Origin: Gaertneriomyces semiglobifer
Lineage: Eukaryota > Chytridiomycota > Chytridiomycetes > Spizellomycetales > Spizellomycetaceae
Reading direction: 5' to 3'
NCBI GenBank assembly: GCA_025558075.1
Contig: JAHLKF010000038.1
Coordinates: forward strand, 36,113-100,112
DNA: 64,000 nucleotides
The notes below the pieces were generated by a model that did no database searches, was not told where the DNA came from, and saw nothing but the letters and a program-made list of their open reading frames with translations. Positions 533 through 26,098 of the stretch are shown here, piece by piece (the stretch's first letter is position 1; the number at the start of each line of letters is the position of its first letter). The position numbers were made by a program, and so were the translations under genes.

Positions 533-2668
533 TTACAATGGGGCAACACCATAGAGAGTCAGACCACTACCGATCCAACTCAGTATTAACTCTGCTATTG
601 TTGGAGCATCTGTTGATCTTATACGTATTCGTAACAATGTATTTGCTTCTGCAATTGGAATTAACCATCGACCTTCCATTCGTCCATCCTGTGGGATGGT
701 TTGTGTGTATTGTCCTCCCTCCACATAAACACTCGATGATGGAGCCTTCAGACGATAGTTTGTCCAGACTTTGGCATTGCCAGTCATTCCACCCGTTAGG
801 CCCGAAAAAGCAACATGGTAAACACCTGGTTCAACGATAAGTATTTCATTACGGTTCGCCGTGACCAGTTGAATCAGACTTGTTTGTACTGGTGTATCTG
901 ACCAAAGCACATACATTTCTTTAGTAGCGGAAGGCACTTCGGGTTCAGCAAAAATTGTATGGTCTGTTGTTTTAAACACAGCGTATGCGGGGCTGCGATG
1001 GAAGTGTTCAAAGTTGGTTTGTTGGTGAGTTCTTCATAAGACAAGGTCTCATTGAGTGCCAAAGCACCAAGCGTCGGTTTGTTGATGATATCGTTGCTAT
1101 TCCAGTCCAGACTCTGTTTGAGTGCCAGGGCGCCTATAGGTGCACCCTTCACTTTCAGGTTACCCAACATGTTCACATCCCCTGTCCCAGGTTCCACGGC
1201 AATTCCGCCATTTACATTGTCAGACTGTAGTAGCAGAGACCCTCCACCGGTATTACGCAACATACAGGTGTTCGGTCCACCGTTGCCGGTGTATATAGAT
1301 GAATTGTATTGGAGAAAAGCCCCCTTGGTGGTATCGTTAGCAAGGCGTACTTGTGTAAAAGCACCTGCATGCTTGAATCGGTTGGTGCATATCATTTGAA
1401 CCATTGTGGAATTCACAGCCTTGCTGCCAACGTTCATGGAACCCGTTGTTTCAATGTTGGTGTATTCCATGTAATGTGTAGAATCACCGGTTCCAACAGT
1501 GCCTGGCGAGTTTGGCACATAGTACTCAATGTACCCTTGATGCACACCGTTGCTCAACAAAGTCAAGTGTCCAAGACTTAACCAAGGTGTGTTGGCCACA
1601 TTGGTGAATGTGTACAGAAGCACTCGTGTTGATGCAACTAATTCGGATCGGGTATTGCCAACGTACACCGAAAGGTCAACTGTATCGGAGACCGTCTGAT
1701 GCACGATACGGAAATAGAGATGGCGCGATCCGGTAGGGTGTGGGTTGCAGAAGCTACTTTTGTCGGTTCACTGTTAAAGCGTGTATATACATCCACCACA
1801 CGATTGGCCCGGAAGAGGATGTTGATTTGCGGTGGTCGGTTCCCAGGTTGGTTGTCCACTTCGTACGTATCAAACATACGAATAAGGACACCAAACCATC
1901 TGGTACTCTCACCAACAGCGTTGAGCCGGATACACCCTTCAATGGTTGCATCGAGATGATAGTTGTGAAACACCGCACCATACAGCTTACTCAAATTGTC
2001 TGATGATCCTGCAACAGACAAACGCGCTGCCCATCTTTTCGGTAACCAATCGTAACGAGCGAACCGTGGTTTGCCAGCCACACCATAGAACAATTTTGTG
2101 GATACGTATCCGTTGAGAGGATCCAAACATTCCCACTGATACGGAGCAAAGGATCTGTACCATTGCGAAACCGGTACGGGTGCATCTGCATACGCACTCA
2201 CAACGCGCTCATACTGTTCCCGATAGGTTTTCCATTGGTGAGGAGAATCCAAAGTGTACAAGAACAGATGTTTCTCCAAATTGTCAGCGACGGGATACAT
2301 TGTACTCAGTTGATCATGAGAACAACATAGATGGTCATACGTTGTAGGATCCTGAGCTTGGACATCGGTTGCATTGTTGACTGTCCAAATGGTTAAATAG
2401 CCGGCCGCTTTGAAAAATGTAACTTGATCTATTTCAAAGTCGGAGAACACCATCCGGTCTGGAGTCAACCCAATGGCGCGACATTCATCCAATAAGGCGG
2501 CAGGGTCCCCATTTTTGAGTTCCAAGAAAATGATGACCTGAGGGTACTTTCTCAAAGCATCCCAAGCTTCACGTAAAGTGGGTAACGGTTCACCGTCAAA
2601 GAGATGTGACCACCCTGATTTGAGGTGCCCTTTTTGGAGCTGCTCAGAGGTAGTTCCTGGATACTCGT
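533..2668 (-). pseudogene. Element-B fiber, 3' half: GDPD domain plus fiber C-terminal region (interrupted and frameshifted)
   Basis: This is the downstream half of a fiber gene cut by element A; the upstream half is at 26099-28157. After the insertion point the protein continues with the rest of a glycerophosphodiester phosphodiesterase barrel (TLREAWDAL, then VIIFLELKNGD, the FSDFE strand and the late TIWTVNN strand). Next comes a region of about 200 residues, then repeats of the type KPTLGALALK and SLDWNSNDIINKPTLG that closely resemble repeats in element A's fiber. A beta-rich tip ends at 533. Two frame changes, near 1640-1700 and 880-980, split this half into three open segments, so it is broken independently of the insertion. 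GDPD enzymes hydrolyse glycerophosphodiesters; on a fiber this would suggest action on host surface lipids or polymers (inference). Confidence 0.75.
2664..2668. repeat. Left target-site duplication CTCGT
   Basis: CTCGT directly precedes the left palindromic terminus and recurs directly after the right terminus at 26094-26098. Removing element A and one copy restores an uninterrupted fiber reading frame across the junction (Glu-Glu-Tyr-Glu-Tyr-Pro), which fixes the boundaries to the base. Confidence 0.9.
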
Positions 2669-2725
2669 TGTCACAGTGCACCACAATCTGGTGGTCAGAC
2701 CACCAGATTGTGGTGCACTGTGACA
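2669..2725. repeat. 57-bp perfect palindrome at the left terminus
   Basis: Two 28-bp arms (TGTCACAGTGCACC... and its reverse complement) surround a single central A. The last bases of the element can therefore fold into a terminal hairpin. The mirror copy is at 26037-26093 with a central T. Confidence 0.9.
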
Positions 2726-2945
2726 GTGGCGGTGAACCCTAACACTTACCACCACTTGGTTGCCACCACCAAGCCGTTTGGCTGCCACCACCAACCGGTA
2801 GAAGCGGTCACGTGACCTCACAGGACGTCATTGGAGAGTCATATGGTCGTTCATACATCTTCACGGCATCTTCTAATACATCGATTGAAGAATCGGTGAA
2901 GAAACCATCATACAGCATTCTCTGCATCTTCACGGCAGCGTTTTT

Positions 2946-3101
2946 GATCTCCTATTTTGTCCGAATTGGAAACTGTTGATACAATATACTATCTGCAAGT
3001 TTCCAATTTTTCTAAATAGGAGAACGAAAAGCTTGACGGGATACTTGGATAGATATCTTAGAGGAAACTGATATGTTTTCTCTCCTTTATTGAAACGTTC
3101 T
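2946..3101 (-). repeat. Stem-loop module, copy L1
   Basis: The copy starts with GATCTCCTATTTTG, holds a loop containing the ATACAATATACTATCTGCAAG core and ends with TTGAAACGTTCT. It is an imperfect member of a five-copy family (others at 3361, 20608, 25235 and 25661) and lies inside the left terminal repeat. Confidence 0.7.
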
Positions 3102-3360
3102 ACCCGGCTACAGCTTCTCGGTTAAGTGTCTAGTACCAAAGGCTACATAGGCTACAAGTATCGTACAACAGTCATGTAGCCCTTGTAGCCCTTGGAGTCT
3201 TCAGGCAAACAACGCTTCTCGTGTAGCCTCTTGACGACAACTTTGTCACCGTTCCCCAATGTACATGTTGCCCGGGCTTCCCGTCGCGACACTGGCTTCC
3301 TCCCTTACTTCCTTTATGAACCATTACCAAAAGTTGCCTTTCGTCCTCGCAGTAGCTTCT

Positions 3361-3528
3361 GTTCTCCTATTTTGAAGATTGGAAACTTGCAGATAGTATA
3401 TATGTTTCAACAGTTTCCAATCTTCAAAATAGGAGAACGCAAAGCTTGACGGAATACTTTCAAAGGAAACTTGGTTAGATATCCGAGCGGAAACTGATAC
3501 TTCTTCTTCTTTTTTTTTGAAACGTTCT
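3361..3528 (-). repeat. Stem-loop module, copy L2 (27-bp perfect arms)
   Basis: Arms at 3361-3387 and 3412-3438 (GTTCTCCTATTTTGAAGATT...) are perfect reverse complements around a 24-base loop. A conserved flank follows (CAAAGCTTGACGG, GATATCCGAGCGGAAACTGATA, GAAACGTTCT). The palindromic part could be a cruciform, a protein-binding site or an RNA 3'-end hairpin. Confidence 0.75.
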
Positions 3529-3587
3529 CGCGCGGGTGCGTCCAAGTTTTTGTTATCTCTGATTTTTTCACCGATCTCATGTAAAAG

Positions 3588-4061
3588 ATGTTTCCATTAG
3601 AAATCCTTCACATGATCTTGAATGAAAGACGTCGTCTCATGCATCATGAAGACTTTCAGAAACGACGGCAAGTTGTGAAGGCAAACCTCAAATTCCCATT
3701 GAGATTCTTTATCTCACAACGCATCCGTTTAAACCCACCCGGGACGGACACGGAGCTTCATTACAGTGTGGGAGAGCATCACCAATGGGAAATTTTCCAT
3801 CATAGTGGATACCATGAAAGCATCATACGACACTCATTCATTAGTCAAAAACATTTTCGAAAACGGCGGGTCTTAATCGTGTACGAAAACGACATTCATG
3901 TGAATGGTATTGGAGAGGAGTTTTTACATAACACCATGAATATCGCAGACTTGAACAGAAGAGAAGGTCATATTCTCACACTCTCTTGTGACGCCGAACC
4001 TGATGATTGGGCATGGTCCTTAGGAATGTATCATAAAAGGAAACCACGTAAAACAAAATGA
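3588..4061 (+). CDS. Orphan protein with F-box-like N-terminus
   Basis: This is a 157-residue frame starting at ATG 3588, 60 bp inside the left terminal repeat. The N-terminus (PLEILHMIL) fits the LPxElLxxIL core of F-box motifs, though the rest is not recognised. The middle is rich in His, Phe and Arg, and the C-terminus is basic (KRKPRKTK). If it is a true F-box it could recruit host SCF ubiquitin ligase, but the motif is short. The neighbouring fiber gene is convergent; their stops lie about 110 bp apart. Confidence 0.55.
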   Translation: MFPLEILHMILNERRRLMHHEDFQKRRQVVKANLKFPLRFFISQRIRLNPPGTDTELHYSVGEHHQWEIFHHSGYHESIIRHSFISQKHFRKRRVLIVYENDIHVNGIGEEFLHNTMNIADLNRREGHILTLSCDAEPDDWAWSLGMYHKRKPRKTK

Positions 4062-4171
4062 TTCTTCCACTTCAATGTTATTAAGCTTTCTCATTCGGAG
4101 CCTTTTCCCTTTCCAGAAAGTGAAGAATCCTTTTTTGATCGAGAAAAGAATCGGAAAATGAAGTGTCCATC

Positions 4172-7100
4172 CTATCCAACTCTTGTTACAATTAATCGTG
4201 ACATACCAATATCGTTAATCTTGAAAGCATCCGTTCTATGTTCTACCGTCGTGGGAACATGCCAAATGATAAAGGACAATGTATTCATCCAATTGGTTAA
4301 AGATTGGATGTGGGCACACATATTGAATCTTAAGGTTTGAAATCTTCCTGATGCATACTGTGTGGCAGATTCTGGATACGTGATTATGTTACTTTTGCTC
4401 ATCACTGTTCCTTCTGGCATGTATTCTGCTTCAGAATCTCTAATCACATTACGGGCTTGACATAACCATTCGTATGCATTCACTTGAGTATTTAATGGAT
4501 ACATCCAAGAGAGAACAATTTCTACTGAGTATACACCGACGGATGGCAGTGTCAAAAATGAAACCCGATAACCATAGGAGGTTTCTGTGGTTGTACATGT
4601 GATTCCATTGGTCGAAATGTTCGGTAGGTAGTCAAAACTTAAATATCCATCGGTTCGGCTTGCTGTCAACCAATTGACTCCAGTGTATTGAAAAACACCG
4701 ATAGGAGTAGCGCCGAATGTAGAAGGTTTGTTAATAATATCGTTTGTATTCCAGTCGATCGTATCTTTGAACGCTAGGTTCCTTACTTTTTGGTTGTCCA
4801 CACTCAAAACCTTCTTCAAGGGTCCACCCTTAAATTTCAAGGCGTATATCTGGGCGTACTTTGCACCTGTTGAACCCCCAATAATGGATTTTGCAATCAA
4901 TCGGTACGATTTGTAAGCAGGTGGGTTAGTAGTTATAACGATATTTAGTTCACGCAACAAGCCATTCGTAGTAGAACTACTCCAATTGAATGTTCCAGAA
5001 GTCACCTGTTTCCAAGTTGAATTATCATTACTAGCTGCAAGAACAAAATCTTTAATATCAAAGTATTGACTGCTTGCAGCAGTAGGACTAGCAATGTAAA
5101 CGGAAGTCAAAGCAATTGAAGTTTGCATGCCCAACTGAACCCATTCGCCACTGACTGCCGATCCATCCACTGTTGTGGATGCTGTCCCAATATACGAGTA
5201 CGGCGCATTGGTTGAATATGGATCGTTAGCAGAAAACCAAGTGTTGCTGTTGTCCGAAACATATGGATTGTAAATTTTCCAAGCCGTCCACGTTCCCGAA
5301 TATACACTTGATGAACTAGTAGTATATTGTCCTGTTAGAGCGCCTGTCATAGGAATGTCAGGAAACGTTGCAATTGAAAGAACATCATCTTGCAAAGTGA
5401 GTCCATTCATCTGGACACCACCGGAACATACCAAGTTCTCTGTCACTACCTGATTTGCGGAAATGGTGCCTCGGATGTCCATCGAAACAGGTGTGCCATT
5501 GAAAACCAAACGACCGACATAGCAATACGCTGAATTAAGTCCGCTAACAGATCGTATAATCAACCTGTATATCTTGAATGGCTTTGTTGTCGTTGGTGTC
5601 TGTACATTGACTGTTTGCGTTTGACCATTAATCCAAGATGAAATAGTCGATGAAAGAACGTGAATGAAGGTGGATCCATCGTTCGAACCGACTAGGGTGA
5701 AATCCCTCACATTTCTTATATAGGTAGAACTTCCAGATATATCGAACGATGTTAAGAAAATGCCAACTGGCATCTGAATCTGAACCCATTCTCCAGCAAT
5801 GTTTGTCGAATTCACAATGGTTGTTTGTGAGCCTGCATACAGACCGGTGGTGACATCGTAACCTGATGTTGCTTCTGAATACCATCCTCCCCCGGCAGCA
5901 AAAACCGCATATGGTTGATACGTGGATGAGAAGATAGAACTTGTACTCGCAACATAAGTTCCATTCCCATATGCTTGGTTTGAGATGATAGTGGAATTTG
6001 ACGTCATGCTTAGCGGAGGGAATGCAACCACATCAGAAGTTGTTCCAACTGAAAGCCTTTCAGATACATCTATAGCGCCATGTTCATCTATAACGATACC
6101 CTTTTCCCTTTGACTGAGAACCCTGAGAGCACCGTTGTAGTTCATCAGGGTCGCTGTATTTCCACCACCAAAGGCAGTGCGTGCCTGCGCGTTGACATTA
6201 ATATAGAGACCGGTTCCAGGACCGGCTCTAATTTGAAGAGTTGTTCTCGAATTGGAACCTGTTGATGAATTGACAAGAGAGTGCAGATAGGAACCGTTAA
6301 CATTCATTGTTCCATTGAAGGATCCTCCTAAATTGAGATTTCCTGTTGCAGACAAGGAATCAATACCGGTCAAGACTGGATTCAGTGAAACCGTATTGTT
6401 GCTAAATAGCAAATTGCTTCCATAGGTCACAGATGCTGGAACATTGATTAAATCAGTCGCATAATCGATCTTATCCTTGTAAGCCAATCCCTTAAGTGCT
6501 GTTTTTGTTTCATATACGGTTAAATCCGGTTTTCCTGAGACTTCAGTGATCCATGACACTGACGATTTTGAAGCGAGGGCGCCCAATGTTGGTTTTGATA
6601 GAATGTCATTCCAACTCAAAGTGTCCTTGTATGCTAAAGCCTTCAGATTGGTTTTGACTTCAAAGGCGCCGAGATCTGACCCAAGAGATATTGTGCTCCC
6701 TGTTTTGACCAACCCTGTTCCAACCGTGAGATATGATAAAGAATCCACATATGTTTTCGTTGTGAGATCAGTGGCTTTGTTAATGATATCTGTTCCATTC
6801 CAATCCAGTGTATTCTTTGTACTCAATGTTCCCAAAGTTGGCTTGTTCGCCACGTCTGTCGTCCAAGATACACTGGATTTGGCAGCGAGGGCACCCAATG
6901 TCGGGCGCCCGGTTAGATCATTATAGGCAAGAGTGTCCTTGAACGCAAGAGCCTTTAATGAACTTGTCTTTACAAAGGTCGAGAGATCTTCACTTAAGGA
7001 CAATGTATTGCCTGTTTTGGTTAATCCATTTTCGACGCTGATATAGTTAATACTTTCTATATATGGAAGAATGTATTGCTCATATGCTTGATAAATCATG

Positions 7101-8557
7101 GCAAGGTTGGGAACAGTTGAAGGATGCTCTTGAAGGATCCCGCCTTGGTTGATGAATCCGCTTTGCAAGTGCCTATCATGTGTGAGGATGGCAGTAGAGA
7201 TGCTATCATCATCAGTCCGTCTTAGGATAATGTCCAGGTGTCCAGGCTGTGTGATAGGAATTCCGTTGGCATCGTATTCCAAAATTGATCTTTCAATTCC
7301 TTCTTCGGTGAATTCTGACTGGATTTTCTCTGTCCATTTAGTGCCCCACGAGTCTACAAGGACAGTACGCTCTAGATTTTGATCTCTACCTTTGAAAATT
7401 GGAGGGACTCCATTAAGGCATCCTCCACCACCACCTCCGCCTCCCCCTCCTCCACCGCCTCCTCCAATTCGTCCAGTATTCTTCAGATTTGTTGGATCGA
7501 CTGGAGGGGGAGGCGGAGGTGGAATGGGGGGGTCTGGCGGATCGGGCAATCCTGGAGTGATTTCTCCTGTTGAACCTCCTCCTCCTTCATTATCTCCTTG
7601 ATACGTATCCTTGAATGTTGTACCGCCATTTTTGTTTGTAGGACCGAGAGGTGGCTCTTTCGTCATGAGCGGACCGGTTGAATTTGTAATTGTTACAATA
7701 CCTGTCAGGGCATCGGGAGGAGAAACGATCAACCCGATTCCAACGACCCCACGAACAACGGGCAAGGACGTATAGGCAGTCAAAGCAGCATCCAGACCAG
7801 TGACCTGCCCAGCCAATGATGTAGCGATTCCTTGCAAACTTGTTACATCGCCCTTCATCAAAGCCTGCGCTACTTGCACTCCAGTAGCAACTGTATTCAC
7901 TGTATCGACGACTCCTGTCAAGCCTGTGACTTGAGCCCCTAACGAAATCAAGTCGGACTGAATTTGGTTCTTAGCAATGTCCAAGTTGTTGATATTTCCT
8001 TTGTTGGTGGTGATATCGCTCGAGAGAAGGTCGCTCTTCAATTCTTGCTGCTGTACTCGACTCTCAACAGCATCGATTTTGTTATCCAAACGAATGTCTT
8101 CATTCTTCAAACTGTTGATCTCATTATCAGTTTCCAGTTTGTTCTGGTCAGTCTTTTCGTTAAGATCCGTCACTTTGTCGTCGAGGTTGTCAATTTGACT
8201 CTGTGGATTCAGCACGGACACTTCATACGAAAAGGGATTCGATTGGACAACAGTGACATTACTAGAGCCGGAAATAACAGTCTTTCCAATGACTTCGTCA
8301 CCTTCTCGTCGCAAGGAACCGCCATATGTTAACTTGGACGAAATCACATTGTCAATGATACTAATGGAATCTCCTGCCGTGTAGGCATCCACTGACAACT
8401 TGTTATTTACTACTTTAACCGAAGTACCGTCCGCGATGTTAGTAACATTCACTTCGAGTTGGTTCGACTCATTGATATTGAGTGTCGTATCATGATTAAC
8501 CTTGATCAACTTGCGTCCGTGCAACGGCACCGATATCCACTGCTGAACCAGCCTCAC
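4172..8557 (-). CDS. Fiber/tail-like protein, main part (ORF without its own ATG)
   Basis: This open frame of about 1,460 codons has no ATG near its 5' end: the first codon of the frame at 8557 is GTG, and the first Met is more than 200 residues in. It overlaps the end of the 8496-9509 frame by 62 bp, so it is probably the continuation of that gene after a +1 shift. From N to C it holds beta-rich shaft repeats, a long coiled coil (about residues 120-190), a hydrophobic Thr/Val region, and a low-complexity zone with proline and glycine runs (around 7420-7560). Many KPTLGALA...SVSW repeats follow. Two discoidin (F5/8 type C)-like domains come next (GEWVQIQM...DFTLVGSNDGSTF and GEWVQLGM...DFVLAASNDNSTW). 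A C-terminal beta tip ends it. Discoidin-like domains bind glycans or lipids, so host attachment is the likely role. Confidence 0.8.
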   Translation of the reverse strand: MRLVQQWISVPLHGRKLIKVNHDTTLNINESNQLEVNVTNIADGTSVKVVNNKLSVDAYTAGDSISIIDNVISSKLTYGGSLRREGDEVIGKTVISGSSNVTVVQSNPFSYEVSVLNPQSQIDNLDDKVTDLNEKTDQNKLETDNEINSLKNEDIRLDNKIDAVESRVQQQELKSDLLSSDITTNKGNINNLDIAKNQIQSDLISLGAQVTGLTGVVDTVNTVATGVQVAQALMKGDVTSLQGIATSLAGQVTGLDAALTAYTSLPVVRGVVGIGLIVSPPDALTGIVTITNSTGPLMTKEPPLGPTNKNGGTTFKDTYQGDNEGGGGSTGEITPGLPDPPDPPIPPPPPPPVDPTNLKNTGRIGGGGGGGGGGGGGGGCLNGVPPIFKGRDQNLERTVLVDSWGTKWTEKIQSEFTEEGIERSILEYDANGIPITQPGHLDIILRRTDDDSISTAILTHDRHLQSGFINQGGILQEHPSTVPNLAMIYQAYEQYILPYIESINYISVENGLTKTGNTLSLSEDLSTFVKTSSLKALAFKDTLAYNDLTGRPTLGALAAKSSVSWTTDVANKPTLGTLSTKNTLDWNGTDIINKATDLTTKTYVDSLSYLTVGTGLVKTGSTISLGSDLGAFEVKTNLKALAYKDTLSWNDILSKPTLGALASKSSVSWITEVSGKPDLTVYETKTALKGLAYKDKIDYATDLINVPASVTYGSNLLFSNNTVSLNPVLTGIDSLSATGNLNLGGSFNGTMNVNGSYLHSLVNSSTGSNSRTTLQIRAGPGTGLYINVNAQARTAFGGGNTATLMNYNGALRVLSQREKGIVIDEHGAIDVSERLSVGTTSDVVAFPPLSMTSNSTIISNQAYGNGTYVASTSSIFSSTYQPYAVFAAGGGWYSEATSGYDVTTGLYAGSQTTIVNSTNIAGEWVQIQMPVGIFLTSFDISGSSTYIRNVRDFTLVGSNDGSTFIHVLSSTISSWINGQTQTVNVQTPTTTKPFKIYRLIIRSVSGLNSAYCYVGRLVFNGTPVSMDIRGTISANQVVTENLVCSGGVQMNGLTLQDDVLSIATFPDIPMTGALTGQYTTSSSSVYSGTWTAWKIYNPYVSDNSNTWFSANDPYSTNAPYSYIGTASTTVDGSAVSGEWVQLGMQTSIALTSVYIASPTAASSQYFDIKDFVLAASNDNSTWKQVTSGTFNWSSSTTNGLLRELNIVITTNPPAYKSYRLIAKSIIGGSTGAKYAQIYALKFKGGPLKKVLSVDNQKVRNLAFKDTIDWNTNDIINKPSTFGATPIGVFQYTGVNWLTASRTDGYLSFDYLPNISTNGITCTTTETSYGYRVSFLTLPSVGVYSVEIVLSWMYPLNTQVNAYEWLCQARNVIRDSEAEYMPEGTVMSKSNIITYPESATQYASGRFQTLRFNMCAHIQSLTNWMNTLSFIIWHVPTTVEHRTDAFKINDIGMSRLIVTRVG

Positions 8558-9509: not shown

Positions 9510-9580
9510 TTCGAGAACCAGTCGAACCAGGTTATTTATTACTATATGGTAAAGCTTTTTTCACACAATCAAAAGGAAAT

Positions 9581-14463: not shown

Positions 14464-14487
14464 CAGACAAAGTTTTAATTCTTTCTA

Positions 14488-15880: not shown

Positions 15881-15892
15881 ATATAAAGGTCC
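15881..15892 (+). promoter_or_regulatory. TATA-type promoter core ATATAAAGGTCC
   Basis: It lies 76 bp before the SF3 helicase ATG. The identical 12-mer occurs at 19882 before the SprT-like gene, which suggests coordinated (early) expression. Confidence 0.6.
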
Positions 15893-15967
15893 CGAAATGG
15901 GAACCGGGGAACCACAGAAAAGAGCAAAGAAAACAAAGAAGCAAAGAAGCAAAGAAAAGCCGTCAAT

Positions 15968-18424
15968 ATGGACACCCGTCAGAAGGTACTTTGGACCAAG
16001 GAGCAATCAAGAAAGTTGATATGCCCTGTATGCTTCTTCCAAGCAAGTCAGGACGGACCTATACAGACTAGGATTCCGGAGATCAAAACCCATTTTCAAC
16101 AACATGAGGATGACTATGAGATTATTCTTGAGAGAACGCCTCCCAAAGCCGTTGAAGACCAATCCCAAGTCGACGATGAAACCATTGAGGGGTCAACCGA
16201 AGCCACGGTTCCTGTATCCGCTGAGCTTACACCAGAACCTATTGTGACACCTGACAATACTTCCGACGTCGTAGTTCCTGTATCGGATGAAGACACATCT
16301 GACCCAGTTCTCGTATCGGCTGAAGTCGCATCCGACCCAGTTCCCGTATCGACTGAAGTCACATCTGAGCCCATCGAGACAACCGACACGACTTCCGAAG
16401 CCATTGTTGCGGTAGCTGCTGAAGCCAGTCTTGAAGCCACTGGAGAAACAATCGCCAAAGAAAGTCCCAAGAAGTCCAAGAAGACCAAGAAGCTACAAAA
16501 GTTACAGAAGTTTCAAAAGTCTAAGAAGTCCCGGAAGCGCCATCGTGAAACGACTGAGGATGACAATGTATCTTCCAAAAAGGTCAAACTGGAACACAAC
16601 CACGATCCCAAATTAAAAAAACTTGCGGAAGAATTCATGACTGGGGAACCAGAAATAAATGAACCTCCGAGAATGCTTCGCATTTTGCATCGTGGGAAAG
16701 TCGTCATTCGGAACGACAAGACAACATGGAAGTTTTCAGATCATGTTTGGAGACCATCGAGTCAGGAGAACCTCGAATGGATAGCTAGCGATTCACTCAC
16801 GACCTCGTTGAAAGAGATGGGCTTTACATTAAAAAAGAAAGTAAGCACATTTCTGCTCAAGAACAATGCCAAGGTTGTTCGCTTGTGGAAGGGAATACTA
16901 GGAGATGATGAACCTATTGAGGACAACTTCGACCGGCAATGGAATCTATTGTGCTTCAAGAATGGAGTATTGGATTTGGATGATGTGACAATGTCTGTGC
17001 CCAGGGGTGGTCGCCCGGAGGACTACATTACTGTCCAAATACCATACGATTATTTGCCATTGGATGAGGAGGCACCTATGTTCAAGGAGCTTTGGAAGAT
17101 CTTATGTGATATGTATCCCGATGAGCTGGAGCGTGAATATTGGTTGACGTCCTTCGCCTTGGCTCTTGCCAGACACAATGTCCAGCTGGTCAAAGTGTAT
17201 ATTGGAGATGGAAGCGATGGGAAAAGTGTCATGCTTAGCTTGCTAAAGGAGGCTTTGGGTCCTCATATGTGTCCATTGAGTGGTTCATGCTTGACGAAGC
17301 GCTTCACTGGCACCGGACCTCAACCGGAATTAAGCATTGCACAACAACCTCATATCCGAATAATTGGAATTGATGAAGGAGAAAACGCAGACCATATCTC
17401 TGGGGAAACCATCAAGTGCCTCACTGGTGGTACAGAAAAACATAGTCGAGGACTGTACCAAAACGGCAAACAAGACATCTACCGGGCTACGACTTTTGCC
17501 TTTCGGAACTCCATGTTCTACATTCCCGACCATGAAAAGTCACAGATTCGACACTATATCATTGGTAAAGCACGTACTCGATTTGTCAAGTTTGGCTTTT
17601 ATGAGAAAGTTGCAAAGGGGGATATCAAAACCACAATGTGCGTCAAACTCGGGGACAACACATTGATGAGTCGTAAGAAAGAGTTTGCTCCCTACATGAT
17701 GATGATCCTTATCAAGTATTATCGACGCTACTTGAAAGCCGAAAGAGAATCAGCCATTGCTGTCATTGCTGCCAGAGAATTAGCCAGAAAAATATCAGAG
17801 GAGCAGCTATCAAGCGACCAAACTTTGACAGCAGAATCATCCGAAATATTGCCCCAGAACTCTACAATGGCGGCAACTGAAGTGTTGAAGGTACCACCGA
17901 CAATCATTGACTCCACAAGAGAATATCTTCTCAAGTGTGATCCTCTCCATCATTTTCTCAAAGAAAGTGGATTTGTCGAAACCGAGCACCAATTGCCTCC
18001 AAGCGAATTCGAAGAAGATGCGGACATCATTGAAGAACCTGAAGAAATAGAGGAAGAAGATACCTCATCTGATGAAGATGAAGGTGACGATATGTCTACT
18101 GATGATGATAATGATGAAAGTGATGAAGATGGTAATGATTCGTCTGATGATGAAAGTGTTGTTGAGCAAGAATTGTACCGCGCTCATCAAGTGGATATCG
18201 ACAAGCTTGTCTCGTTCTGGATGAAAAAGCAGGACAAAAAGTTTAAAAATTATGCATACAAGAAGGACCATTTGAAACGGTTGCAAACCCTTCGTGAAGG
18301 AATCATATTCAAGACGAAAACACATGTGAAAGGGAAAAACACGAGTCCTGGATTTTGGGGTATCAGGATCACCAACGCTGGAAAAAAGTGCCTGGAGTTC
18401 ATTAACAAGAAGGAATTTCGTTAA
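15968..18424 (+). CDS. D5-like superfamily 3 helicase
   Basis: This is an 818-residue protein from ATG 15968. The N-terminus has a possible zinc finger (CPVCFFQ...H...H, residues 18-43), then a Ser/Thr/Pro/Glu-rich linker with tandem PVS-TE repeats (about 75-150) and a Lys-rich stretch. A D5_N-like region follows (LLCFKNGVLDLD, about 320). The SF3 core has Walker A GDGSDGKS (about 418), motif B IIGIDEGE (about 463) and motif C ending in FRNSM (about 515). An acidic Asp/Glu/Ser tail and a small basic C-terminal domain complete it. No catalytic primase domain is visible; that activity is probably supplied by the 20940-23993 protein. It acts as the replicative helicase. Confidence 0.87.
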   Translation: MDTRQKVLWTKEQSRKLICPVCFFQASQDGPIQTRIPEIKTHFQQHEDDYEIILERTPPKAVEDQSQVDDETIEGSTEATVPVSAELTPEPIVTPDNTSDVVVPVSDEDTSDPVLVSAEVASDPVPVSTEVTSEPIETTDTTSEAIVAVAAEASLEATGETIAKESPKKSKKTKKLQKLQKFQKSKKSRKRHRETTEDDNVSSKKVKLEHNHDPKLKKLAEEFMTGEPEINEPPRMLRILHRGKVVIRNDKTTWKFSDHVWRPSSQENLEWIASDSLTTSLKEMGFTLKKKVSTFLLKNNAKVVRLWKGILGDDEPIEDNFDRQWNLLCFKNGVLDLDDVTMSVPRGGRPEDYITVQIPYDYLPLDEEAPMFKELWKILCDMYPDELEREYWLTSFALALARHNVQLVKVYIGDGSDGKSVMLSLLKEALGPHMCPLSGSCLTKRFTGTGPQPELSIAQQPHIRIIGIDEGENADHISGETIKCLTGGTEKHSRGLYQNGKQDIYRATTFAFRNSMFYIPDHEKSQIRHYIIGKARTRFVKFGFYEKVAKGDIKTTMCVKLGDNTLMSRKKEFAPYMMMILIKYYRRYLKAERESAIAVIAARELARKISEEQLSSDQTLTAESSEILPQNSTMAATEVLKVPPTIIDSTREYLLKCDPLHHFLKESGFVETEHQLPPSEFEEDADIIEEPEEIEEEDTSSDEDEGDDMSTDDDNDESDEDGNDSSDDESVVEQELYRAHQVDIDKLVSFWMKKQDKKFKNYAYKKDHLKRLQTLREGIIFKTKTHVKGKNTSPGFWGIRITNAGKKCLEFINKKEFR

Positions 18425-18438
18425 GCATTAGTTATGTG

Positions 18439-19770
18439 TTATGTGATATTTGTTATTTCATTGTATTCATCAATCAAATTTTGTGCATTTACATCTTCTT
18501 CATTGACCCATGAATCATCGTCTTGCCCATATCCAACCCAGCGGACCTTATATTGAGTCCGTCCACGATACCGTCTGCGTCCCACAATCGCCTCGACTTC
18601 ATAGTGATCTTCTTGGTCTCTGTTGAGACGAAGTGATCGCCGTGGTTCAGCAGCCTCATTCTGTTCTCTTATTAATTCATTATCCTCGAGTGGATCATCG
18701 ACACTCGGTACGTCCTCTTCAACTTCTTCTTCTTCTTCTTCCTCACTTTCATCGAGAGCATCTTCCTTCAGGATAGGAGGGATCGCTAGTAGAGAACTCT
18801 TAGGGTACCTTTCTTTCAATACGTTTCCATTACCATCTTCTAAACGGTAAGATGCCAAAATGTTGGCATAAGTAGAATTGACCCTTTCTACTACGATGAA
18901 AATATCTGTGGACCAATAACCCCCACGCCCGTACTTCTTCACCGAACTCTTCAAGTCCCGTTTAATACGCACCCTTTGACCAATATGCAACGGTTTTGTT
19001 CTTGAGTTCACATGGTATCGCTTAGCTATATTTTTTGTTATCTTTTCTTGTGCCTCAGCGACCATTTCAGGATCTGCCGCTTCAAGGTCATTAGGACTGT
19101 GTCCAGTCGCAAAAGAACGCATGTTATTCACATTGTTTATTACGGTCGGAAGTCGGGATACCCATTTCCTGTCATCGTTGGCATTCATGAGTGCGTATAA
19201 TTGTTTTTTGATATCTCCATTTCTTCGTTCCACAAAGGCATTCGCTTCAGGTCTTCCCGGTTGCGAATATATATGCTTGATGCCGTGACTCTGTAGCATT
19301 GCTCGAAAGATACTCTGAAAGTGACTACCTTGGTCTGTTTGTACAATTCTAATCTCCTTACCTTCACGTTGACACTGTTTTACCATATCTTCAACTGCAT
19401 TGGTCATGTCCACTTCCCTTTCGTTCCTCAAGGGTCTTGAAAACGATTTTTTGGTGAAGCCGTCTATCATATAGACGAAAGCGACATAGCCAGTGTCCGT
19501 ATAGGTTCGCATCGACACCATATCTATCTGAAGGTAACCTGGTTTCTGTATATTCAAAGGCGCAATGACAGTGGCTGTATTTGGTTTTCTATGAAGTTGC
19601 CATTCGTCCTTCGAATACAGGAAGTCGTAGAGAAGAGCCCTTTGGCTACCTTTGAAGTCAGGATACTTGCGTTTTACTGCGAGCCAAAGGTTGTCTCTAC
19701 CTACCTTCATCGTAGAATAGACATTCTCAACTTGACTCCGTTCGCGATCTGTGAGTGCGCGGAAACTCAT
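18439..19770 (-). CDS. Retroviral-type (rve) integrase with C-terminal chromodomain
   Basis: The frame opens further upstream, but the start taken here is MSFRALTD at 19770, giving 443 residues. The DDE core is visible: Asp in LQIDMVSM, Asp in VQTDQGSHF and Glu in NAFVERRNG. A basic SH3-like region (RVRIKRDLKSS), an acidic Glu tract and a clear chromodomain (YEVEAIVGRRR...YKVRWVGYGQDDDSWVNEEDV) follow. It catalyses provirus insertion; the 5-bp target duplication fits this enzyme class. The chromodomain could steer insertion to methylated histone H3, as in chromoviruses. It is divergent from the SprT-like gene. Confidence 0.93.
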   Translation of the reverse strand: MSFRALTDRERSQVENVYSTMKVGRDNLWLAVKRKYPDFKGSQRALLYDFLYSKDEWQLHRKPNTATVIAPLNIQKPGYLQIDMVSMRTYTDTGYVAFVYMIDGFTKKSFSRPLRNEREVDMTNAVEDMVKQCQREGKEIRIVQTDQGSHFQSIFRAMLQSHGIKHIYSQPGRPEANAFVERRNGDIKKQLYALMNANDDRKWVSRLPTVINNVNNMRSFATGHSPNDLEAADPEMVAEAQEKITKNIAKRYHVNSRTKPLHIGQRVRIKRDLKSSVKKYGRGGYWSTDIFIVVERVNSTYANILASYRLEDGNGNVLKERYPKSSLLAIPPILKEDALDESEEEEEEEVEEDVPSVDDPLEDNELIREQNEAAEPRRSLRLNRDQEDHYEVEAIVGRRRYRGRTQYKVRWVGYGQDDDSWVNEEDVNAQNLIDEYNEITNIT

Positions 19771-19881
19771 CTTTATTGATAAGTGAGTGATTATATTATG
19801 GATCGACTTCTTGCTTTGTGCGATGAAAGAACTAACTATCGATAGAGGAAAAGGAACGATCAAACATGCACCTAACGCAAT

Positions 19882-19892
19882 ATATAAAGGTC
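19882..19892 (+). promoter_or_regulatory. TATA-type promoter core ATATAAAGGTCC
   Basis: It lies about 58 bp before the ATG at 19940 and is part of TATATAAAGGTCC, the same core as before the SF3 helicase. It supports the internal start chosen for the SprT-like protein. Confidence 0.6.
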
Positions 19893-19939
19893 CTGTACGA
19901 GGTCACTTCTCCAATTATGTCTATATTCGAAAGTTCAAG

Positions 19940-20491
19940 ATGAAGAACGCCAAGACACCCGTAAAAAGGCAGACAAAACGCAAAACCGCCAAAAAACGCG
20001 CTACAAAAACCGTAAAGGTAACCAAGAAAACACGGGTAGTCATCAAGCCAGTCACCAAAATGGAAAAGGCTGCCACGAAGCTTGCTCACACTCTTTTTAC
20101 TAAACACAAAATTGTTGGGTGGACTTTTGGTTTCGACCGAGCTGTAAGGCGCTATGGCGTAACGAAATTCGGATCAAAAGTTATATCATTGTCTAGAGAA
20201 TGGGTCAATTCACCAACTGGAACATTGGACAATATTCGTAACACTATTCTTCATGAAATTGCTCATGTTCTTACACCAAAACACCACCATGATGCTGTGT
20301 GGAAAGCCAAGGCAATCGAGATTGGCTGTACCGGAGAGAGGTGTGGATCCTATGGTAGCTTCGTCGAGAAAAAGTGGAAAATAATTTGTAAATGTGGAAG
20401 AGCCAATTTAGAACGTCACAGGAAACCTGCATGTCTCGAGAACAAAGTGTGTGATCATTGCAAAACTCCTCTCAAAATAGTTAAGAAATGA
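19940..20491 (+). CDS. SprT-like zinc metalloprotease
   Basis: The start at 19940 (MKNAKTPVKRQ) is preferred over upstream codons because a TATA box lies between; this gives 183 residues. A basic N-terminus (KRKTAKKRATK) is followed by the SprT core with HEIAHVLTPKHHHDAVW (HExxH plus a third His). A C-terminal zinc-ribbon-like part has CKCG and CDHC pairs. Cellular SprT/Spartan proteases degrade DNA-protein crosslinks. Here it could clear proteins from replicating or incoming viral DNA, or replace the missing maturation protease (inference). It sits between integrase and primase-helicase. Confidence 0.85.
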   Translation: MKNAKTPVKRQTKRKTAKKRATKTVKVTKKTRVVIKPVTKMEKAATKLAHTLFTKHKIVGWTFGFDRAVRRYGVTKFGSKVISLSREWVNSPTGTLDNIRNTILHEIAHVLTPKHHHDAVWKAKAIEIGCTGERCGSYGSFVEKKWKIICKCGRANLERHRKPACLENKVCDHCKTPLKIVKK

Positions 20492-20607
20492 TATAGGAGG
20501 AATACAGTTGTGTTGTAATACAAATGTCATCAATAAAAGCTGAAGAACATATTGCTGGAACGCGTCGACCCCTACACTCTCTGTGCGGATCCATCCATTT
20601 GTGGGAT

Positions 20608-20762
20608 AGAACGTTTCCAAAAAGTGGAGAAACATATCAGTTTCCGCTCGGATATCTATCAAAGTAATCCCGTCAGGCTTTTTGATCTCCTAATTTGAAG
20701 ATTGGAAACTGTTGATACGTATATACTACCTACACTTTTCCAAATCTTCAAATTAGGAGATC
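20608..20762 (+). repeat. Internal stem-loop module, related to those in the terminal repeats
   Basis: The unit reads AGAACGTTT, AACATATCAGTTTCC, GATATCTATCAAAGTAATCCCGTCA and then a hairpin (20684-20762) with GATCTCCTAATTTGAAGATT arms. Both the flank and the hairpin are diverged copies of the modules in the terminal repeats, but this one lies 5 kb inside, between the SprT-like and primase-helicase genes. Confidence 0.75.
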
Positions 20763-20939
20763 AAGAACTACTGCGTCAACGATCATGTAATATATGTATA
20801 CATGATGTAGTCATCAATAAAGCTTTCAAACAGTACATAAACCCTACACACTGCGTTCGGTTATCAATAGGATTTTTAGTTGCCATTAAGTAAAACGAAA
20901 AATCACAACCCCCCAGTTCTAATTTTATCGATTACTAGA

Positions 20940-23900
20940 ATGGCAATTACTTCTATCAAGAACAAGTACCGTCCCATTGAGAAGCACGGTATCACTTTCT
21001 TCACCAATCGCAGCAAGGGCAATGGGATCCTCAAGAATCTCCTTGGGAAATGCCCCACGGACAAGGTGGTCGTTGCATCTTCAATCAAGTACGAACGTAA
21101 AACCGGTGATCAACAAGGTACCAAAGCGTACAGCGCTTATACCGCCGTGACGCCCAAGCAGTTGTCGGCTCTGTTGAAGCAGGATGTCAACTTATTCGAG
21201 ATCATGCATGAAGACCGTCCTCAAAAGGTTGCTTTTGATATCGACTTTAAACCCCAACCCGACCAAACGCCCATCAAGACGGATGTACTCCAAGAAATCA
21301 CTACCTTGCTTCACAAGTACTTTCCGGGTTGCCGTTTGAATATATCAGGATCTATCACCGACTCAAAGCATTCCTATCATATAATCTTGGAAAATTATTT
21401 TGCGAAACGCAATGAGGATCTACTCGCGGTCAAACAGTTTTGCTGCGTCCCAGAACACAGGGCTCTGGGCTTTGATCCTGCCGTGTACAATAACAACGGA
21501 CAGTTTAAAGCGATCAATCAAAGCAAAGGAGATGGACGGATTCAGACTTATATATCGGGTTCGAAAAAAGTTTTGGACCACACCGTCATGCACAAGATCC
21601 CAAAAGATGCCATCGACGTTTCGACCTTGGATCTACCTGCTCCTGCCAAGAAGCGCAAGTACACCAGGAAAGACCCGGCGAACGCGTCCAATTCAAAACC
21701 GAAGAAGAAAGTGGACGATTACATTATCGAGCTCCCGCGTATGGAATTAGAGTGTCCAGACGGATTCTCTTACCATGAGGCAACACCGGACGCACAACTG
21801 GCTGCCATGCCCAATGCTCCTCGGTACGACAAGTTTCAGTTGTACCATACGTACAATCGCCGAGTGCTCGCCTGGTGTAAGCATGTCGGTCTCACCTTTG
21901 AAGAGTTCTGGGAGTGGTGCAAGCAAAAGGACGATAGCCCTGATCGAAAATCCAGGTACAGCCGCATATGGAAGGATGCAGATGTCAACAAGTACCCACC
22001 CAAGGATAACTTTATGAAGGCATCGTTGGCAGTGGTGTACAAGAACATTCAAAAGCATCATCCGGTCAAGCAGATGCTCCAATCATTGAACAAGACATTT
22101 GACCTCGACATCAATCGTCGCTTCCTCAGTGTGGACGATCTGATTTCCAACCAAGATAAACGATGCATTCTCCTTCAACTCCCGACCGGTAGTGGAAAGT
22201 CACAGGCTGTTCTCGAGTTGCTGAAGTGGTACAGCGAAAAGAATCCGAATCAACGCATTCTTTGGCTGACGTGTCGTATCACATTGACCAACGACCAGAG
22301 GACACGCCTCAGAGACACCACTGGACTTCCTTGGATATTTTACTTGGATGCACATGGATCCGCCAAGAAGGAATTGATGAAGAAATCGAATCCTCAGTAC
22401 TTTGTGTGCTCCGTCCAGTCTGCATACATGATAAACAAGCCTTATGATCTTGTCATCATGGATGAATCTGAAACACTATTGAGGAGTTTTGAAGGTGAAG
22501 CAAAATGTCACAAAGGTGGTTCAAACGACCGACGTCTCCTTCACTGGAAAATCTTACAGACGACCATCACAAACGCCAAACAGACCATCTGGATGGACGC
22601 TTTGTTGACCAATGCCAGTATCCATCTTGCTCAAGATCTCTGCGGCGGGGAGGTTTTCAAAATAGGTTCTCAACCACACCATGTCCCTCAACGTAACGCG
22701 ATACGGGTCAAGTCAGAGCCAGATTTCTTCAACAAAATCCAAGTAGCTCTGCAGAATGGTGAAAAGCTACTTATTTGTACGGGGAACAAGGGATCCACCA
22801 CTCCTGACAGCGAATGCTTCCTGTCTGTTGAAGGGATCTACTCGACAATCATGCGTATGTTCCCTGATTGGGAGTATGGGAAACAGGTCTTGAGATACCA
22901 TGCGGATCGCAAAGATGAAAAAGAAGGATTGCGAGAAGTCTTGTCTGCTTGGGGACATCCTGATATACGTGTCGTGATTGGGAATTCTTCACTCGCTGTG
23001 GGTGTCAACTATGACCCAACACCAGAACAACAGAAATACTACAGGCTTTTTGACAAGGTATTTGTCGTACTTCAGCCGCCGGCTCTATCGCCTCGGGACG
23101 CTACTCAAGTTGTGGGACGTGTGAGGAAAACCACAACCAACGAGATCTACTATCTTGCCGCTCGCGGTGCCACAGGAGCCGACTTCTATCACAATGATGG
23201 GCTTGCTGATTCACTCTCTCAGCTGTCCCCTGCATATGCCCGTCTGAGGAAGAACATGAGGACAGAAACGTTGGTGTCTTCATGCAAAGGATACATGACC
23301 ATTGTCCGTGAGATGTTCCTCATGAACAACATTGTCATGGCAAAGGATGACATTGAAGCTATCGTTGAAGAGGACGAAGAAGAAAAGGCAAACGAGTTCT
23401 GCAATACCGACTTGAGTATGTACCGCTGGAAAAACATTCGAGACATCACCGAAGATGAAAAGAAAAAGATTCTACAACTCATGTTCTACCAGGATGCAAC
23501 TATCACACAAATACTCGAACTATACAAGTACAATTTCCGGGAACGGTTTATATCCATTGAGGAGGGCTTGTACGAGCTGTACTGGGACAGGTTCAAACCA
23601 TGTGCAGATCAACTGCATATGATGGGCATCACCAGACGCAAAGACAAAGATCTTCCTGAAGAACATCAATACAAGATGAAACTTGCAGCTCGACACCTGT
23701 GCAAGTTGTTCCAAGAGAATAATGTGGATATTATGGATCCGGACAAGTTCAAGATTACCAAGGACTTTCAATGGAGTGTTCCTTTGCATGAGATCAAACG
23801 CATCTTTGACTTTTTATCGCGTCCGCCGACAACTCTTAGGATGGATCTGTTCGCCAAAGTCTTGAATACAGCGTTCGGGACCGAGTTGGTGTACAAAGAC

Positions 23901-23993
23901 TATCCCAACGAAAAGAATCGAAAGTACTACGAATGGAAAACCAAATACTTTCCTTGTGATCCTTGCCATATTCGATCTTTGCAAGAACTTTAG
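20940..23993 (+). CDS. Primase-SF2 helicase fusion (origin-binding-protein-like)
   Basis: The frame opens at a TTG (20880); the first ATG is 20940 (MAITSIKNKYRP), giving 1,017 residues. The N-terminal third looks like an archaeo-eukaryotic primase: KVAFDIDF carries the catalytic DxD and SYHIIL the following His motif (about residues 100-155). After a basic linker (AKKRKYTRK) and a helical domain (FEEFWEWCKQ) comes an SF2 helicase with Walker A LPTGSGKS, motif II IMDESET, and motif VI QVVGRVRK. The helicase resembles herpesvirus/phycodnavirus origin-binding-protein helicases. It would prime and open origins, alongside the SF3 helicase. No polymerase B accompanies it in element A. Confidence 0.85.
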   Translation: MAITSIKNKYRPIEKHGITFFTNRSKGNGILKNLLGKCPTDKVVVASSIKYERKTGDQQGTKAYSAYTAVTPKQLSALLKQDVNLFEIMHEDRPQKVAFDIDFKPQPDQTPIKTDVLQEITTLLHKYFPGCRLNISGSITDSKHSYHIILENYFAKRNEDLLAVKQFCCVPEHRALGFDPAVYNNNGQFKAINQSKGDGRIQTYISGSKKVLDHTVMHKIPKDAIDVSTLDLPAPAKKRKYTRKDPANASNSKPKKKVDDYIIELPRMELECPDGFSYHEATPDAQLAAMPNAPRYDKFQLYHTYNRRVLAWCKHVGLTFEEFWEWCKQKDDSPDRKSRYSRIWKDADVNKYPPKDNFMKASLAVVYKNIQKHHPVKQMLQSLNKTFDLDINRRFLSVDDLISNQDKRCILLQLPTGSGKSQAVLELLKWYSEKNPNQRILWLTCRITLTNDQRTRLRDTTGLPWIFYLDAHGSAKKELMKKSNPQYFVCSVQSAYMINKPYDLVIMDESETLLRSFEGEAKCHKGGSNDRRLLHWKILQTTITNAKQTIWMDALLTNASIHLAQDLCGGEVFKIGSQPHHVPQRNAIRVKSEPDFFNKIQVALQNGEKLLICTGNKGSTTPDSECFLSVEGIYSTIMRMFPDWEYGKQVLRYHADRKDEKEGLREVLSAWGHPDIRVVIGNSSLAVGVNYDPTPEQQKYYRLFDKVFVVLQPPALSPRDATQVVGRVRKTTTNEIYYLAARGATGADFYHNDGLADSLSQLSPAYARLRKNMRTETLVSSCKGYMTIVREMFLMNNIVMAKDDIEAIVEEDEEEKANEFCNTDLSMYRWKNIRDITEDEKKKILQLMFYQDATITQILELYKYNFRERFISIEEGLYELYWDRFKPCADQLHMMGITRRKDKDLPEEHQYKMKLAARHLCKLFQENNVDIMDPDKFKITKDFQWSVPLHEIKRIFDFLSRPPTTLRMDLFAKVLNTAFGTELVYKDYPNEKNRKYYEWKTKYFPCDPCHIRSLQEL

Positions 23994-24069
23994 CACTTTT
24001 ATCCATTGTTCGATCGATAGGAAAAGGTTATTCGATTAAAGGTAAACCTCATATTTTTTTCAAAGCTTG

Positions 24070-24079
24070 TATATAAAAG
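24070..24079 (+). promoter_or_regulatory. TATA box TATATAAAAG
   Basis: It lies 59 bp before the ATG at 24138 and supports that start rather than the upstream in-frame codon at 24102. Confidence 0.5.
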
Positions 24080-24137
24080 CAAATATACTTTCACCTTCAG
24101 ATTGTTGTCCACCTCCATCCGTATCTCATTCTCCAAA

Positions 24138-25154
24138 ATGGACCGCGAAAGTATCAAAGGTATTCTCGAAGCCAATTTGAACGCGACTAGCGTCGAGATC
24201 AAGAAGCGCGCCAAGTACCTTTTAGCTATCCTCAATGAGGGTCTGCTTGACGATCTTTACAATGTGGAGGTGCAGGACTTGGCTAAACGGTTGTTTGATC
24301 GGACGCAAGATCCTCGCAAGAGTAGAACTTCAAGTATGGAAAATGTTGTCAAGTCTCATCTAGGTTATGTTCGTACATTACTTTCCACTGATATTCCTGG
24401 ATTCAAAGACGACGAGGTACGTCAACAGTATGTTATGAAGATCAGGTCATACCAGGATAGTTTCGCACCAAAGCATCGCAAGGAGGGAAAGTTATCGAAC
24501 AAGGAGAAGGAGGCGTTGGACAATGCGGCAGTGGATATTGAGACATTTGAGAAACTGTTTGAAACAGTCAAGACACTTACTGAAGACATGCTCCAGATGC
24601 TGCAGAACAATGTTTCCTTGGACGAAGAACAGTTGTTGAACCTGCAATTGGTTATCATATTGAATCTGCTGTTGAACGAACCAAATGTTCGTTTGAGTCC
24701 ATATGCAAAGTTGAAATTTGATGGGAACTGTCTGGATGACAACATTATTGTTTTTGAAGGACATGAGATGGGTAAGATTGTACTGATCTTCAACACTGTC
24801 AAAACGGTGGGTGTCCCAATCATCCTTTCAGTGTCGAATGAACCGTTGAAAAAGATGATGCACGCGTACTTTGATCGCTACCGGAAAGACCACAAGGACC
24901 ATGGATACTTGTTCCAGAAGAAGACCAAGCGTCCTTTTTCAGCTGATGAACTTCAAAAGGGAATCAATCAGTTGCTTCGTAAGCACTTTGCAGATGGATT
25001 GACTTCAAGATTGATCCGTGTTATCGAAACCATCACTTCATATGAGGCGGACAAGAAGTTCAGTTATCGCGAGTTGGATATGATGTCCTTTGCACGCAAT
25101 CACTCTATCAAAGAGGGACACTTGTATAATCGTACCGAGCGTAGCAATGTCTAG
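24138..25154 (+). CDS. Tyrosine-recombinase-like protein
   Basis: The start MDRESIKG at 24138 gives 338 residues. The N-terminal half is helical. The C-terminal half follows the layout of tyrosine recombinases of polinton-like and giant viruses: LVIILNLLLNEPNVR (helix then Arg), a beta hairpin, IVLIFNTVKTVGVPIILSV, PLKKMMHAYF, YLFQKKTKRPFSADELQKGINQLL, SRLIRVIET and ARNHSIKEGHLYNRT (His-Ser and a terminal Tyr). The usual HxxR triplet is not clean (SRLIRVIE), so activity is uncertain. It could resolve replication products or palindromic ends. It is the last gene before the right terminal repeat. Confidence 0.6.
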   Translation: MDRESIKGILEANLNATSVEIKKRAKYLLAILNEGLLDDLYNVEVQDLAKRLFDRTQDPRKSRTSSMENVVKSHLGYVRTLLSTDIPGFKDDEVRQQYVMKIRSYQDSFAPKHRKEGKLSNKEKEALDNAAVDIETFEKLFETVKTLTEDMLQMLQNNVSLDEEQLLNLQLVIILNLLLNEPNVRLSPYAKLKFDGNCLDDNIIVFEGHEMGKIVLIFNTVKTVGVPIILSVSNEPLKKMMHAYFDRYRKDHKDHGYLFQKKTKRPFSADELQKGINQLLRKHFADGLTSRLIRVIETITSYEADKKFSYRELDMMSFARNHSIKEGHLYNRTERSNV

Positions 25155-25234
25155 TTTCAGTCCTAAGTTTGTTTTTTCATTAAGTAATATGAGCTTTTGT
25201 TTTACATGATCTGCTGTTCATTGGCACCCACCCA

Positions 25235-25401
25235 AGAACGTTTCAAAAAAAAGAAGAAGAAGTATCAGTTTCCGCTCGGATATCTAACCAAGTTTCCTTT
25301 GAAAGTATTCCGTCAAGCTTTGCGTTCTCCTATTTTGAAGATTGGAAACTGTTGAAACATATATACTATCTGCAAGTTTCCAATCTTCAAAATAGGAGAA
25401 C
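25235..25401 (+). repeat. Stem-loop module, copy R1
   Basis: This is the mirror of 3361-3528, with the same 27-bp perfect arms around the hairpin. Confidence 0.75.
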
Positions 25402-25660
25402 AGAAGCTACTGCGAGGACGAAAGGCAACTTTTGGTAATGGTTCATAAAGGAAGTAAGGGAGGAAGCCAGTGTCGCGACGGGAAGCCCGGGCAACATGTA
25501 CATTGGGGAACGGTGACAAAGTTGTCGTCAAGAGGCTACACGAGAAGCGTTGTTTGCCTGAAGACTCCAAGGGCTACAAGGGCTACATGACTGTTGTACG
25601 ATACTTGTAGCCTATGTAGCCTTTGGTACTAGACACTTAACCGAGAAGCTGTAGCCGGGT

Positions 25661-25816
25661 AGAACGTTTCAATAAAGGAGAGAAAACATATCAGTTTCCT
25701 CTAAGATATCTATCCAAGTATCCCGTCAAGCTTTTCGTTCTCCTATTTAGAAAAATTGAAAACTTGCAGATAGTATATTGTATCAACAGTTTCCAATTCG
25801 GACAAAATAGGAGATC
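25661..25816 (+). repeat. Stem-loop module, copy R2
   Basis: This is the mirror of 2946-3101. It carries the single base difference (TTTTC against TTTCC) noted between the two terminal repeats. Confidence 0.7.
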
Positions 25817-26036
25817 AAAAACGCTGCCGTGAAGATGCAGAGAATGCTGTATGATGGTTTCTTCACCGATTCTTCAATCGATGTATTAGAAGATGCCGTG
25901 AAGATGTATGAACGACCATATGACTCTCCAATGACGTCCTGTGAGGTCACGTGACCGCTTCTACCGGTTGGTGGTGGCAGCCAAACGGCTTGGTGGTGGC
26001 AACCAAGTGGTGGTAAGTGTTAGGGTTCACCGCCAC

Positions 26037-26093
26037 TGTCACAGTGCACCACAATCTGGTGGTCTGACCACCAGATTGTGGTGCACTGTGACA
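26037..26093. repeat. 57-bp perfect palindrome at the right terminus
   Basis: The 28-bp arms around a central T are the mirror of 2669-2725. Confidence 0.9.
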
Positions 26094-26098
26094 CTCGT
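26094..26098. repeat. Right target-site duplication CTCGT
   Basis: This is the second copy of the 5-bp sequence at 2664-2668, directly outside the right terminus. Confidence 0.9.

Follow-up and report, generated by a model that had tools for sequence, protein, structure and literature searches.

A polinton-like virus very probably inserted into the putative fibre gene of a resident polinton-type provirus in the chytrid Gaertneriomyces semiglobifer

Two virus-like elements, here called A and B, lie one inside the other in a 64,000-nucleotide stretch of the genome of the soil chytrid Gaertneriomyces semiglobifer (the window; C38:36113-100112, C38 being contig JAHLKF010000038.1 of assembly GCA_025558075.1, 20.86 Mb in 66 contigs). 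The question raised by this locus is how the arrangement arose, and whether the inner element was steered to the outer one or harms it. A is very probably an integrated virus that inserted into the fibre gene of B, a resident provirus. Direct support comes from the termini of A, a target-site duplication, the phase of the two gene halves, six uninterrupted sister sites, the capsid fold and the integrase domains. Positions without a contig prefix refer to the window, and features are collected in Table 1.

The terminal inverted repeats (TIRs) of A differ at 1 of 849 positions, the outer ends read TGTCACAG at 2669 and CTGTGACA at 26093, and both are bordered by the same five bases, CTCGT (chance of a 5-bp match at fixed ends, approximately 1/1024). 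These termini and the duplication were as described in a first-pass annotation of the stretch, of which the interval 2664-26098 spans both duplication copies, A proper being 2669-26093. The fibre gene of B is split as that annotation had proposed: the 5' part (28157 down to 26094, one duplication copy included) comprises 2064 nt or 688 codons with 0 stops, and the 3' part (2663 down to 1638) comprises 1026 nt or 342 codons with the terminal stop only, agreement of frame being computed arithmetically on the unjoined halves.

Sister loci were then compared, using the 9 other loci with a fibre-gene match (matches to the A TIR alone were excluded). Both halves were present in six (C25, C63, C7, C32, C28, C5), and one part only in C20, C45 and C58, where the insertion site cannot be judged. 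In 6/6 of the former, the 100-nt flanks of the window, aligned separately, abutted without a gap, the five bases of the CTCGT site being present once (identities per 100: C7, 100 and 100; C5, 98 and 97; the other four, 91 and 81-82); stops occurred elsewhere in the fibre gene of some sister copies, e.g. C7. Because of the duplication and these uninterrupted sites, the order first proposed is supported, and A would have entered after this B copy existed. The C1 copy of B was considered as an allelic empty site and was unusable because fibre sequence is missing from it. The capsid gene there is adjoined by approximately 1.1 kb and the left TIR (at 723759), with neither fibre half found, and the left flanks also differ. 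Dating by TIR divergence, in which A seemed much younger (A 1/849 vs. B 8/212, Fisher P = 1.7e-5), was set aside because the two ends of B may derive from different copies.

Under the preferred reading, the retroviral-type integrase, presumably A's own, would have cut the chromosome with a 5-bp stagger, the linear viral DNA of A would have been joined into the fibre gene of a polinton-type provirus that was there before it, and gap repair would have produced the CTCGT duplication. Chance, or a slight bias towards the sequence NYCGT and/or chromatin, would have determined the site, and not the disarming of B.

A is an integrated polinton-like virus (PLV) of the MELD type of chytrid fungi. It has a double-jelly-roll capsid, a packaging ATPase and TIRs with a 5-6 bp duplication and an rve integrase, and its capsid is 56% identical, over 99% of its length, to the hexon of Powellomyces chytrid fungus MELD virus 5 (third-party annotation record), the comparison with that virus covering its hexon entry. 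A capsid 97% identical to that of A occurs in Gaertneriomyces sp. JEL0708. A falls outside the strict Polinton/Maverick definition (protein-primed DNA polymerase B, pPolB, plus rve integrase): the integrase is present, and a Pfam scan of 13 A open reading frames (those <100 aa and possible exons left out) returned no match to DNA polymerase B. Its replication genes are the D5-type primase-helicase and the superfamily 2 helicase. For the A ATPase no Pfam packaging family was above cut-off, and relatives of the A capsid and the B ATPase sought in viral contigs were not confirmed. The integrase chromodomain (Pfam Chromo, E = 3.9e-13) matches the HP1 and CDYL chromodomains in PDB (HP1 1kna, E = 9.6e-9), with Y, W and Y at what we take to be the aromatic cage places; it has the features of the type that binds methylated histone H3 lysine 9 through such a cage, and histone binding is predicted. 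The gene set and size fit the 'complete virus' first claimed; infectivity would be putative. Tandem repeats of 37-38 bp lie at 15213-15668, between the ATPase and primase genes; a sigma-70 scan of the A TIR was disregarded as not meaningful for a fungus.

B has TIRs of approximately 212 bp, at C38:33886 and C38:80768 (window 44656), and no target-site duplication was seen. It carries the pPolB of the Polinton/Maverick definition, frame-broken in this copy (open frame of 238 aa vs. up to 1215 aa in C34, C30 and C47); the A integrase has no match within B, no search with a B-type integrase having been made. The putative capsid, labelled from its position, is also broken: the end of its first piece (from approximately residue 228) matches a different frame in 5/5 close relatives, and the C1 copy has a 535-aa open frame. 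Residual assembly indels could account for some of these breaks. No relatives of the 346-aa putative minor capsid protein were found in the protein database. The interrupted gene had been described as a GDPD-bearing fibre. The fibre label corresponds to a match to the avian adenovirus fibre N-terminus (E = 1.6e-4, just under the Pfam cut-off), and the GDPD label to a weak hit over residues 22-85 of the 3' part (E = 0.032), the sole result when four proteins of A or B were compared with PDB sequences; the Pfam scan of the gene found no GDPD family. A 200-bp repeat, perhaps a solo long terminal repeat, adjoins the B TIR at C38:33688-33886, C12:3521, C10:10453 and C63:7768, and stands alone at many other loci. 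A further pPolB relic (48%, two stops) lies outside B at 46992-47465, with an equal match in C1.

Table 1. Positions in the window of elements A and B, their ends and their genes.
Feature	Position	Strand	Remark
Element A, integrated PLV	2669..26093		TIRs, protein families, capsid fold
Target-site duplication CTCGT, left copy	2664..2668
Target-site duplication CTCGT, right copy	26094..26098
Left TIR of A, 849 bp	2669..3517	+	First 57 nt a near-perfect palindrome
Right TIR of A	25245..26093	-	Last 57 nt palindromic
A, 1461-aa protein with F5/8 type C domain	4172..8557	-
A, fibre-like protein	8496..9509	-	Weak adenovirus shaft match, E 0.0016, under cut-off
A, 551-aa protein, function unassigned	9581..11236	-	Conserved in spizellomycete chytrids
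A, major capsid protein, double jelly roll	11748..12998	-	56% to MELD virus hexon; fold
A, putative minor capsid protein	13696..14439	-	From position; no family match
A, packaging ATPase	14488..15210	+	Terminase profile, E 2.8e-7
A, D5-type helicase-primase	15968..18424	+
A, retroviral-type integrase, C-terminal chromodomain	18439..19863	-
A, SprT-like protein	19787..20491	+
A, superfamily 2 helicase	20880..23993	+
Element B, interrupted by A	1..44656 (within window)		Begins 2.2 kb upstream, C38:33886
B fibre gene, 3' part	1638..2663	-
B fibre gene, 5' part	26099..28157	-
B putative capsid gene, two frames (29329-30093, 30056-30925)	29329..30925	+	Putative label
B putative minor capsid gene (346 aa), uninterrupted here	30946..31986	+	DUF5901, weak
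B packaging ATPase, A32 type	34063..34734	+	Pox_A32, E 5.9e-9
B protein-primed polymerase pieces, frame broken	38136..39877	+	DNA_pol_B_2, E 1.2e-7
Right TIR of B	44445..44656	-

Other copies of A were located, with 86-88% likeness in the TIR. The copy in C11 has the duplication ACCGT, lies approximately 4 kb from a host glycine dehydrogenase gene and has TIRs with about 7/822 differences (approximate, 8 flank bases being included). C31 carries two copies in a repeat-rich stretch with Ty3-type retroelement genes in the flanks, the first between inverted copies of one sequence and the second without the outer end of its left TIR; C6 has only a TIR fragment. Over C31:94774-149987, where the A copies have inverted flanks, a tandem duplication of approximately 27 kb comprises A plus flank. 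Had other copies stood between the same fibre halves, these halves would belong to A, as the first-pass annotation had pointed out. The C11 and C31 copies are not flanked by B: the flanks at 11 loci (the other A copies plus four A-type integrase relics), searched with 17 pieces of B proteins, contained none beyond B's own left end (locus L015), and that objection therefore falls away. Among the A-family sites found by TIR, 1/3 is inside a B element.

A second nesting was met beside another B copy. In C30, a B copy (98% to the window) ends at C30:158144 after CTCGT, inside the 346-aa putative minor capsid gene, and C30:158145-158196 is a 52-nt palindrome starting TGTCACAG, the beginning of an element called A'; behind it lie a primase-polymerase, a capsid 51% identical to that of A and a chromodomain integrase. 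The junction was identical in 7/7 contigs looked at (C30, C2, C19, C34, C39, C47, C59) and corresponds to the base matching window 31759, where the B of the window is uninterrupted with one CTCGT. Among these contigs B diverges by 0 to 6.5% around the ATPase, the closest differences lying 50-102 nt from the junction, and A' runs for 3927 nt without any substitution. Only one end of A' is visible because six contigs stop 1705 nt behind the integrase; no telomere repeat was found in two such ends and one start read (C30, C2, C59). As A' is identical in all contigs, recombination or assembly path-sharing may have multiplied a single event into the seven, which were counted as one, the alternative being repeated hits on the same base. 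At C19:374261-378861 (likewise in C30, C34, C39 and C47) a pair of dissimilar capsid genes, 51% and 25% identical to that of A, lies approximately 2.2 kb apart on opposite strands beside the A' integrase.

The 57-nt palindromes at the A ends (2669-2725 and 26037-26093; DNA fold -34.6 kcal/mol, z = -11.5) and the perfect 52-nt palindrome of A' share their first 12 bases and differ in the interior. Because palindromy persists though the sequence has changed, formation of terminal hairpins by A-type ends is hinted at and may occur. The palindrome is partly missing at C11 left, at the left of the second C31 copy and in the C6 fragment.

With two nestings in one genome, viruses with a chromodomain integrase might prefer B-type proviruses, through methylated histones or a CTCGT-like target; this would yield stacked proviruses doing little harm to the host. 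Both A and A' encode such an integrase and both start within B genes after CTCGT. The outer flanks at the four ends judged to be A-type were CTCGT, ACCGT, TTCGT and CTCGT, all ending in CGT, a motif noticed post hoc in a small sample. A-type capsid loci near B markers numbered 2/13 at 10 kb (P = 0.06), 4/13 at 15 kb (P = 0.0016, vs. 4.2% of the genome) and 5/13 at 25 kb (P = 0.0005). For these counts, marker positions were compiled manually, the seven A' contigs were taken as one, pieces belonging to one gene were joined, and a single fragment of 27 residues was discarded together with all rows <48% identity; the P values carry no control for the gathering of all repeats in islands. Ascertainment argues against such a preference, as the first case was the starting point and A' was met in a search of the surroundings of B. 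When both nestings were removed, counts fell to 1/11 at 10 kb (P = 0.30), 2/11 at 15 kb (P = 0.07) and 3/11 at 25 kb (P = 0.02), and two of the three TIR-found sites lie outside B. The same picture would arise if both kinds of element shared heterochromatic islands and if harmless insertions were the ones to survive. Targeting is thus considered unlikely on balance: the clustering appears weak, and the suggestion in the first-pass annotation that the chromodomain guides A to silenced proviruses is retained as a possible preference. A further candidate lies at C20:343666-347221. There a B ATPase breaks off at residue 178, and a relic of an A-like capsid, minor capsid and ATPase comes next; this locus was not counted because the break is not at an A-type terminus.

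A stronger form, in which the seven A' insertions are real and chytrid chromodomain-integrase PLVs use resident polinton-type proviruses as landing pads, is doubtful in our estimate. It concerns A' at one base in B copies differing by up to 6.5%, and would require either repeated homing to one CTCGT site or spread of A' between B copies by recombination.

It is very improbable that A or A' profits from breaking the virion genes of a competing virus, the disarming that had first been suggested. Both insertions are in putative virion genes of B (fibre and putative minor capsid), which carries little weight because such genes fill much of B, and a single insertion cannot disarm the B population because other copies keep an uninterrupted fibre site. 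The B of the window is also frame-broken in the putative capsid and polymerase, which are open in sister copies; the sequence allows either order of these breaks relative to A, and a disarming role is putative. An assembly artefact at the A/B junctions is scarcely credible. Path-sharing through B is suggested by the identity of the right side of C38 with C1 and by six contigs that stop 1705 nt past the same A' integrase and carry identical A', but a chimera would not yield a 5-bp duplication and exact termini at a site uninterrupted in 6/6 sister loci, and TIR likeness among the other A copies located reaches only 86-88%.

The assembly around B was nevertheless compared with C1. Window positions 44105-50111 and 61509-64000 matched C1 at 99.8%, with zero substitutions from 45000 onward (sampled parts, 50112-61508 left out). 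Sampled parts of approximately 41500-64000 equalled C1:737000-759497 at about 100%, identity within B dropped to 97.2-99.4% left of approximately 41500, and the sequence of C38 left of B matched the rest of the assembly only through repeats. C38 may therefore be recombinant, duplicated or chimeric, with a switch point inside B, 15 kb from the right A junction, and B may be a mosaic because the right window end equals C1 at about 100%. Possible chimerism right of approximately 41500 leaves A and both its junctions untouched. Four points weigh against insertion of A into B as proposed: C38 in part duplicates C1 and is possibly chimeric right of this position, the junctions were judged from assembled contigs and not from sequencing reads, the C31 copies have no direct duplication and their flanks are mutual inverted copies, and the capsid model of A is of low confidence (mean predicted local distance difference test score, 57).

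Comparable systems were sought in open-licence papers, to which the negatives below apply. The PLV group of Spizellomyces punctatus is likewise integrated in a spizellomycete chytrid genome, related integrated elements are reported to have TIRs and 5-7 bp duplications, and no nesting is described there, the term 'nested' being absent from the text (PMC7805220). Ngaro retrotransposons are nested in Cafeteria endogenous virophages, some types being strongly preferred (91% of type 1; PMC8547959), and nested retrotransposons disrupt integrase or tail-fibre genes of cryptophyte PLVs (PMC12220804, PMC12747079). The Cafeteria case resembles A within B as a mobile element inside an integrated viral element, but in the Cafeteria and cryptophyte systems alike the inserted element is a retrotransposon, whereas A codes for a capsid. 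The Sputnik 2 provirophage in the Lentille virus genome (PMC6723459, a review) is, like A, a small capsid-coding virus within the genome of another virus, but its host is a replicating giant virus, whereas that of A is a provirus in a cell chromosome. Retrotransposons in PLVs or virophages and a virophage in a giant virus are therefore already in print; a capsid-coding integrated virus inside another (PLV in PLV) was not found in this literature.

The insertion of A gives a base-exact record of the integration of a fungal PLV, and the nesting puts events in two viral lineages of this fungus in a clear order. A second case found in the genome makes it testable whether chromodomain integrases steer viruses to already silenced proviruses.

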